From Anaspis maculata (lineage: Eukaryota; Arthropoda; Insecta; Coleoptera; Scraptiidae): a stretch of 64,000 nucleotides of DNA. Below are positions 21,463 to 22,860 of the stretch, piece after piece. How positions within the stretch are numbered: position 1 is the first letter of the stretch; each line of letters starts with the position of its first letter. The notes under the pieces are model-generated. The model was not told where the DNA came from. It ran no database searches and was given only the letters and a program-made list of their open reading frames with translations. Both the position numbers and the translations under genes were made by a program. The stretch covers positions 56,042,012-56,106,011 of the forward strand of contig OX421965.1 of NCBI GenBank assembly GCA_949128115.1. Reading direction: 5' to 3'.

Positions 21463-22860
21463 GTGGATCTTAGAATTGCTAAAAAAGCAATAGAACCAAA
21501 GTGTTCAATCCAAGTCGATACTAATTCATTTAAAAAATCAAATACTTCCTTCGGGAACCATTCGAGCTCCGCCGTGAGTCTCTCTAATAATAATCCAATA
21601 AATGGATTTTCTAATCAATTTTCAATCGAATTCATAAGAGGTGAAATTTTAGATGCACCCAATAACATTCCAATTGGGCACGCAGTGTCTCAAGATTTTA
21701 AAATGAGCCAAGGTTTAGCAAGAAAAATTGCAATAAAATATCCACACAATACCGACGAGTTGCTAGCTCAGCAAAAGATAGTAGGACAAGTTGCTTATTC
21801 CTTTTTCTCGAGCGTAAATGAAACGCGAGAAATTTTTCACCTTATCACGAAGGAACGCTTTCAAGATAAACCCACGTACGATTCTATCAACACAGCATTA
21901 ATGAACTTGCGGGTTATATGCGAAGAAAATCAAATCGCTGAATTAGCACTGCCAAAGCTCGGATGCGGTCTTGATAACTTAAACTGGAAGCACGTTCTTT
22001 CTATGATAAAAGGAATTTTTAATAATAGTCGGATTAAAATTTATATCTATGAGTTCGAAGAACCAAATACTACTTTGAAGAAAATTTTTCATATATCGCC
22101 TAGAACGATCGAGGTAGTTCAACTACCAGTAAAAATAAATTCATTCTCAAACAATAATGCTGATTCAACCTTTATATGTCCTGAACTAGAGATCAATGGA
22201 GTAAAGATTCCTAATTCCATCGTAAAGATAAATGATAACCAAATTATTACTACAATGTTGAACTCAAGCAATGAAACCAAGGAAGTTGAACTTCCTGAAA
22301 TAATTCTTGAACCTTTCGAAACCTTTAACGTGAATAACTACAACGTCACTACTAATCACTCAAATAATATCGATCGAGAACAAAATATTTTAAACCAATT
22401 AAGGCTCGATCATCTTAATTTAGAAGAAAAAGAGAGCATCGAAGACTTGTGCTTAAATTTCAAAGACCCAGGTTCACGCCTTTCAAGATGGCGCCTGAAA
22501 TTAGAAGAGTATACATATGAGATCATTCACAAAGCTGGGAAATTAAATAAAAATGCTGATGCACTTTCGCGTATCAGAATAAATCCAATCACAGCAAATC
22601 CATCTTCATCTTCAGATGAAGAAGACGAGTCAATAATCAATCGTAACGAGACACCAGACTTAATTGATTTTGATGCAAATCCAGACTACGAATTCGAAAT
22701 CGAATATGACAAATTTATTAACGAACAACCTTCAATAAATTTTGATTTAATAAAAGAGACAAACGACTGTGACACTTGCTTACCACAAAAATATAATAGC
22801 ATTCATTCATTTATCTGTTGTCAATTCGTTTTATACCCTAAATTTTATTTTATTGTATAA
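21463..22860 (+). CDS. Macrodomain (OARD1-like) plus RNase H remnant
   Basis: 465 codons. Residues about 53-198 match macrodomains of the Poa1/OARD1 (TARG1) class, which bind ADP-ribose and remove it from proteins. Visible motifs are IGHAVSQDFKMSQGLARKI (71-89), the LITK turn with the catalytic-type lysine (K130), KPTYDSINTAL (136-146) and LPKLGCGLDNLNW with the catalytic-type aspartate (D171). Residues 210-330 look like the linker preceding RT in errantivirus pol. Then, in frame, the sequence jumps to the far C-terminus of RNase H (SRLSRWRLKLEEYTYEI, NADALSRI). RT and the RNase H active site are therefore missing by an in-frame internal deletion near 22465. The macrodomain's effect on the element or host is unknown. 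Confidence 0.82.
   Translation: MDLRIAKKAIEPKCSIQVDTNSFKKSNTSFGNHSSSAVSLSNNNPINGFSNQFSIEFIRGEILDAPNNIPIGHAVSQDFKMSQGLARKIAIKYPHNTDELLAQQKIVGQVAYSFFSSVNETREIFHLITKERFQDKPTYDSINTALMNLRVICEENQIAELALPKLGCGLDNLNWKHVLSMIKGIFNNSRIKIYIYEFEEPNTTLKKIFHISPRTIEVVQLPVKINSFSNNNADSTFICPELEINGVKIPNSIVKINDNQIITTMLNSSNETKEVELPEIILEPFETFNVNNYNVTTNHSNNIDREQNILNQLRLDHLNLEEKESIEDLCLNFKDPGSRLSRWRLKLEEYTYEIIHKAGKLNKNADALSRIRINPITANPSSSSDEEDESIINRNETPDLIDFDANPDYEFEIEYDKFINEQPSINFDLIKETNDCDTCLPQKYNSIHSFICCQFVLYPKFYFIV

Follow-up and report, generated by a model that had tools for sequence, protein, structure and literature searches.

A predicted OARD1/TARG1-type macrodomain within the Pol of errantivirus-like and other Ty3/gypsy elements of the beetle Anaspis maculata

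Enzyme capture by retroelements and the carriage of macrodomains by viruses are both known kinds of event, and the viral macrodomains have guided the recognition of ADP-ribosylation as an antiviral system of vertebrates. TARG1, a cellular macrodomain enzyme, can take ADP-ribose off the termini of double-stranded DNA and single-stranded RNA, and the modification of DNA and RNA ends is reversible (according to the parts of PMC11088682 covered here). In this work we analyse an errantivirus-like Ty3/gypsy provirus in a 64,000-nucleotide stretch of the Anaspis maculata genome (GenBank assembly GCA_949128115.1, contig OX421965.1, positions 56,042,012 to 56,106,011), referred to below as the window and numbered from its first letter. 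An earlier note, made from the sequence alone, had placed a macrodomain of the OARD1/TARG1 class in the pol of this element and had known of no standard Gypsy pol layout that contains one. The remark is supported in that no paper on such a layout was found in the open-access literature. No description of a macrodomain in the pol of an errantivirus, of Metaviridae or of Ty3-Gypsy elements was found there either, an earlier subscription or preprint account being possible.

The macrodomain is encoded on the forward strand at 21619..22053, as placed by phmmer, profile and structural model. Its HAVSQDF motif begins at residue 73, the lysine of its LITK motif is residue 130 (codon 21850..21852, +) and the aspartate of its GCGLD motif is residue 171 (codon 21973..21975, +), exactly as first reported, and the frame is open at 21463. 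Against the PDB, the best five of nine phmmer matches are human C6orf130/OARD1, with E-values from 3.9e-25 (2eee) to 1.3e-24. The match covers query residues 48-197, a significant similarity over the whole domain, and aligns LITK and GCGLD to the same motifs of OARD1, the human counterparts of Lys130 and Asp171 being presumably K84 and D125. When a profile was built from five families of this genome and compared with solved structures, OARD1 was matched at 1.4e-51; the top five of 11 matches are OARD1/C6orf130 and none of the 11 is named viral, so the domain was not assigned to the MacroD type of RNA viruses. The Pfam Macro model gives only 8.4e-4 (19.7 bits against a gathering score of 22 bits) and would by itself miss the domain for this reason. 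The NCBIfam DarG model reaches 1.3e-14, and its 54.2 bits lie far under the equivalog cut-off of 250 bits, so a DarG identity was rejected. An AlphaFold2 model computed with 50 sequences predicts a mixed alpha/beta fold with a predicted local distance difference test score (pLDDT) of 94.8 and a predicted template modelling score (pTM) of 0.89. On sequence, the assignment of this segment to an OARD1/TARG1-type macrodomain, together with its Lys/Asp pair, is confirmed. The span first proposed, 21463..22460, does contain the domain; the rest of it is linker, the connector between protease (PR) and reverse transcriptase (RT), and the start of a truncated RT.

The domain is not peculiar to this copy. 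A search of the genome with the window domain (757.8 Mb, 50 contigs) returned 414 candidates, of which 150 were scored, some rows being partial and a few perhaps two pieces of one copy. Among these, 70, the window included, are 90-100% identical to the query and 61 of the 70 are free of stops within the match, while the other 80 are 37-44% identical. Absence from all other copies of the family, named beforehand as a refuting condition, is thus clearly contradicted, and the macrodomain in this pol is no one-off chimera. Below, L0xx and L1xx denote genomic loci, P0xxx public proteins and A to F families of this genome. L031, a relative of the window copy, has one uninterrupted frame of 1595 residues with PR, macrodomain, RT, ribonuclease H (RNase H), zinc-binding domain and integrase. 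Among the loci examined in this genome six macrodomain-bearing pol families were recognised, whose domains are 35-56% identical between families. The domain is placed between PR and RT in family A, to which the window copy belongs, and in family E (L038); upstream of PR in family C (L034, L035); and after RNase H in families B (L032, L033, L039, L041), D (L036, L037, L040) and F (L162, L163, L164, with L162 98% identical to L163/L164).

Public proteins extend the distribution. A search started from the window domain, in the length class set by its 959-residue query, left 2 of 49 candidates, and one started from the domain of family B left 70 of 206, giving 72 long proteins. In 24 of the 72 the macrodomain is joined to parts of an RT, an RNase H, a zinc-binding domain or an integrase; another 19, all named Molorchus minor, have the macrodomain and only a weak protease match; and in the remaining 29 no such pol piece was found by the local profiles. 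Under the names given by the source, the 24 include Leptinotarsa decemlineata (P0130), Athalia rosae (P0142), Rhynchophorus ferrugineus (P0180) and Carabus blaptoides (P0177), so that beetles and one sawfly are among the named carriers. P0184 has two RNase H matches with the macrodomain at its C-terminal end; P0188 and P0192 also list both RNase H types, and P0184, P0187, P0188 and P0192 appear as a retroelement family with a C-terminal macrodomain. Lokiretroviruses likewise have a dual RNase H; in a term search of the Odin/lokiretrovirus paper PMC9040795, the only macro- word is 'macroevolution', in a reference. P0128 combines integrase, chromodomain, macrodomain and a match resembling a rhabdovirus glycoprotein. 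Several proteins (P0126, P0129, P0131, P0135, P0139 and the like) show a complete macrodomain followed 25-57 residues on by a weaker second one, and P0185, of 747 residues, combines RNase HII, a macrodomain and a 2OG-Fe(II) oxygenase. From a collection of viral contigs, nothing was recovered with the window domain or P0142 as query; the five-family alignment recovered 98 relatives, 80 of them being retained, and going by the type of collection our guess is that these may be phage contigs.

Counted over 30 pols (24 public ones and the six families), the macrodomain lies before PR in 2, between PR and RT in 4, between RNase H and integrase in 14 and after integrase in 10; PR was taken from precomputed Pfam lists and the DTGA motif for P0121 and P0164, and P0177 and P0180, whose integrase core gave no match, were placed via the zinc-binding domain. 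The insertion between PR and RT, which the earlier note had suggested seeking in insect errantivirus pols, therefore exists in 4 of 30 pols, the other 26 using three other places. An RT/RNase H tree built from 20 rows contains a clade of 10 (support 100/100) to which the window family belongs and in which N-terminal, PR-RT and RNase H-integrase placements are mixed. We call this clade errantivirus-like, env having been looked at in the window family; C_L034 and P0184 carry a long-branch flag in the tree.

The catalytic pair is invariant between retroelement domains. In a set of 30 (24 public pols, one protease-only protein and five of the families described above), the lysine and the aspartate are each kept in 30 of 30 at pairwise identities of 28-96% (median 41), while the first glycine of GCGLD varies in 5 and the serine of HCxS in 10. 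When 49 family A copies were compared with the window copy, the lysine was changed in none, the aspartate in one, and one had a stop; this sample, 49 of the 69 other rows with 29 from the top of the list, tilts toward intact sequence, as does that of family B (20 copies, one serving as yardstick). Family B variants found in two or more copies comprise 4 nonsynonymous and 8 synonymous changes against a neutral ratio of 2.87 (omega 0.17, p 0.0035), and its single-copy variants look neutral (18:6, omega 1.05, p 0.62). For family A, the variants in five or more copies stand at 5:6 (omega 0.27, p 0.033) and the single-copy variants at 41:24 (omega 0.56, p 0.020). The comparison of nonsynonymous and synonymous changes across copies, also proposed beforehand, shows shared variants poor in amino-acid changes (omega 0.17-0.53, family A being marginal), and the macrodomain is apparently under selection.

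How often the domain was acquired was approached with trees. The approximately unbiased (AU) test rejects a single clade of the 27 retroelement macrodomains with respect to 19 labelled cellular (p 0.0048; the near-duplicates P0187, P0188 and P0192 were left out, and the alignment has only about 140 columns). One common origin is rejected on this ground, with the reservation that some of the "cellular" rows could be retroelement-derived. In a larger tree of 120 rows the retroelement label has to change 9 times, and well supported branches force at least 6 of these changes. The row closest to the window macrodomain in both trees is P0185 (98/93 and 98/94), which is not taken as a donor. A host donor gene was not found in the same genome, where the best candidates were scored and exons searched separately; the single candidate of different appearance, at C9:15450584, turned out to be one more errantivirus-like copy (L162). 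With so few columns and with cellular rows that are possibly retroelement relics, we put no figure on the captures.

We regard it as about evenly balanced that a TARG1-type ADP-ribosyl hydrolase was captured, probably repeatedly, into the Pol of Ty3/gypsy elements, errantivirus-like ones and others, and has been kept for its catalytic use. Pol is packaged within the particle, and an enzyme borne on Pol is therefore placed to act on cDNA, on RNA ends or on integrase. As a part of Pol, the macrodomain would enter the particle alongside RT and integrase. Host nuclear PARP-like enzymes would put mono-ADP-ribose on free cDNA or RNA ends, or on acidic residues of Pol or integrase, and the macrodomain, acting on the incoming complex from reverse transcription to integration, would strip it from them. 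Once released by PR it could act independently, so that delivery with Pol would be needed and a fixed neighbour would not; its changing location within Pol is in keeping with such a domain. Nucleic-acid ends or integrase are the substrates we favour. Mosquitoes are reported to be without the antiviral PARPs of mammals, and insect-restricted alphaviruses have lost catalytic residues of their macrodomain (both from the covered parts of PMC7729036 and PMC12632316), from which we would seek the target in ADP-ribosylation in the nucleus or on nucleic acids and not in an interferon-like response.

Several observations weigh against a capture kept for catalysis, the loss of catalytic residues in insect-restricted alphaviruses among them; the substrate of the retroelement domains probably differs from that of the alphavirus domains, since the pair is kept in all 30 cases. 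No macrodomain was found by the local profile in the two other gypsy elements of the window, so gypsy elements can manage without one. The family A variants shared by two or more copies are only marginally depleted (16:10, omega 0.53, p 0.086), and the class of five or more copies contains changes private to the window copy. As to repeated capture, 19 of 28 retroelement domains fall in one 22-row branch (91/93) of the larger tree, and relabelling of some cellular rows as retroelement-derived may weaken the case. The placements of P0184 and C_L034 also differ between the two trees: the P0184 macrodomain joins fish OARD1 in the AU-test tree (95/85) and P0122 in the larger one (88/73). Finally, a purely binding, or reader, role may be compatible with the sequence.

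Such a role is the core of one of the two strongest rivals, both of which we hold to be unlikely. Here the macrodomain would be a targeting module which reads ADP-ribose, for example at DNA breaks or on PARP1-marked chromatin, and steers integration as the chromodomains of chromoviruses do. The domain does flank integrase in 24 of the 30 pols, and in P0128 a chromodomain and the macrodomain stand next to each other after integrase; however, the invariant hydrolase lysine and aspartate are unneeded for pure binding, and families A, E and C as well as P0121, P0164 and P0190 carry the domain far from integrase. The other rival, to which we give the same low credence, follows what has been proposed for the macrodomains of alphaviruses and coronaviruses: a counter-defence against antiviral mono-ADP-ribosylation of proteins in the cytoplasm. 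Viral macrodomains are known for this action in vertebrates (PMC12632316 and PMC7729036, in the parts covered), and the macrodomain of the dual-RNase-H protein P0184 falls beside fish OARD1 in one tree and not in the larger; against it, the best solved-structure matches are OARD1, with no named viral protein among the 11.

Retroelements do pick up host RNA accidentally, and 9 of the 70 family A rows contain a stop; both speak for a functionless transduced host fragment tolerated by replicating elements. A passenger of this kind is hard to reconcile with a catalytic pair kept throughout domains whose median pairwise identity is 41%, with shared variants depleted of amino-acid changes and with six families in one genome at several Pol positions, and we consider it very improbable. 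The processing of ADP-ribose-1''-phosphate or O-acetyl-ADP-ribose by-products, small molecules on which Poa1 of yeast and OARD1 can act, agrees with the shared fold family and is the least credible reading of all, no title among those listed linking such molecules to retroelement replication, and no evidence having been found for the earlier idea of splicing by-products.

Traces of a second macrodomain may exist in some lineages. In P0141, P0142 and P0124, ahead of the zinc-binding domain of integrase, and in L038, between PR and the macrodomain, there are segments similar to the C-terminal half of a macrodomain. By single-sequence hhalign these segments (RNase H-integrase in the first three, PR-RT in E_L038) reach probabilities of 63-97% against cellular macrodomains and of 50-98% against those of retroelements; the remaining Pol domains, for comparison, reach at most 0.2%, and 100 column shuffles of the P0141 and P0142 alignment at most 1.6%. 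The four segments are possible decayed second macrodomains. The generalisation that every errantivirus has a decayed macrodomain as its RNase H-integrase spacer is unsupported for the window family and its nearer relatives (A 0.8/5.8%; P0121 0.7/20.7%; B, P0123, P0133, P0136 and P0180 all below 1%).

On a wider and clearly more tentative reading, animal LTR (long terminal repeat) retroelements, including the env-bearing errantivirus-like and the dual-RNase-H lineages, would have taken a TARG1-type hydrolase into Pol independently and repeatedly; ADP-ribosylation of cDNA or RNA ends, or of the integration complex, would be an ancient and undescribed germline restriction, and the degenerate second macrodomain of P0141, P0142, P0124 and E_L038 would be an older capture in some lineages. 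The recurrence of the domain at different places in Pol hints at a chemical defence which such elements must undo. TARG1-type domains that keep their catalytic residues at several Pol sites would suggest that ADP-ribosylation controls retroelements in insects, and they offer a concrete enzyme for tracing the ADP-ribose mark and its writer.

The provirus itself is bounded by identical LTRs, seen as an exact 240-nt direct repeat (19439-19678 and 27141-27380). The first two bases of the repeat, GG, are taken as target-site or purine-tract bases, which gives a 5' LTR at 19441..19678 and a 3' LTR at 27143..27380; these and the following features of the provirus are on the forward strand. The target-site duplication CTGG (left 19437..19440, right 27381-27384) was read from the flanks, and the sequence also shows a purine tract ahead of the right LTR and, adjoining the left LTR, a stretch like a primer-binding site (19680..19696) which may correspond to tRNA-Ser. 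The gag open reading frame with a CCHC-like knuckle (19986..20951; Pfam Retrotrans_gag 0.0021, zf-CCHC 0.093) and PR (20987..21367; gag-asp_proteas 2.2e-4) have Pfam matches under the gathering scores; a local PR profile, which includes the relative L031, gives 2.2e-30 on the frame 20834-21364. The open pol frame (21280..22857, stop to stop) holds the macrodomain, the connector from PR to RT and what is left of RT/RNase H. Just 5' of the macrodomain, the stretch 21540-21619 is single in the window and occurs as two overlapping pieces in L031 (about 1066-1150), so that its length varies among copies. At a junction at 22460..22467, about 1.2 kb of the RT/RNase H of L031 is missing (blastn, L031 against the window), and because of this loss the window copy is broken and unable to replicate by itself. 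The frame is interrupted at 22809..22987 by an insert that has a poly(A) tail and a direct repeat of about 22 bp (blastn against L031, and sequence); it resembles a short retroposed element and lies in a provirus with LTRs that are still identical. A spacer and the integrase, with zinc-binding H2C2 and rve core, follow at 23081..24424 (Pfam 7e-16 and 8.9e-14), then an env fragment of the Baculo_F or Gypsy env type at 25276..26094 (Baculo_F 5.6e-33). Between the two, about 260 nt at 24636-24895 are absent in L031, as deletion or insertion. The identification as an errantivirus-like Ty3/gypsy element, with the macrodomain between PR and the deleted RT as the earlier note had it, thus rests on the LTRs, the short target duplication, the order gag-PR-(RT-RNase H)-integrase and the env, RT/RNase H being missing from the window copy and present in L031. 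By eye, the flanking frames look like a non-LTR element which received the provirus. Two further gypsy-type elements of the window, at 8691-12656 (-) with 7811-8875 (-) and at 48859-53136 (+), have long gag-pol frames.

When compared with known systems, the window domain is 27-43% identical to the single-domain relatives listed. Human OARD1/TARG1 (C6orf130) shares the whole-domain match, the LITK lysine and the GCGLD aspartate, as does fish OARD1, but it is a free-standing host enzyme, whereas the window domain sits inside a retroelement Pol. The macrodomain of the DarG antitoxin is alike in its OARD1-like domain match and differs in the low score given above, and no Pfam-scanned open reading frame of the provirus matched the DarT family. 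Insect errantiviruses (gypsy-like, Metaviridae) have the same LTRs, gag, PR, integrase and Baculo_F-type env; no macrodomain in them was found in the literature searched, and a term search of PMC12992720 and PMC13172572, two recent papers on insect endogenous retroviruses, gave no macro- word. In alphaviruses, coronaviruses and hepatitis E virus a macrodomain is likewise encoded by a virus-like element, but the carriers are RNA viruses, and their insect-restricted alphavirus members have lost the catalytic residues, as said. The nearest precedent found, judged from the covered parts of PMC9289625, is the AlkB RNA demethylase domain of orchid Ty3/Gypsy elements: the enzyme is different, the hosts are plants, the domain lies in an additional open reading frame and one lineage is reported, but there too an LTR retroelement has fixed an enzyme that erases a mark from nucleic acid.
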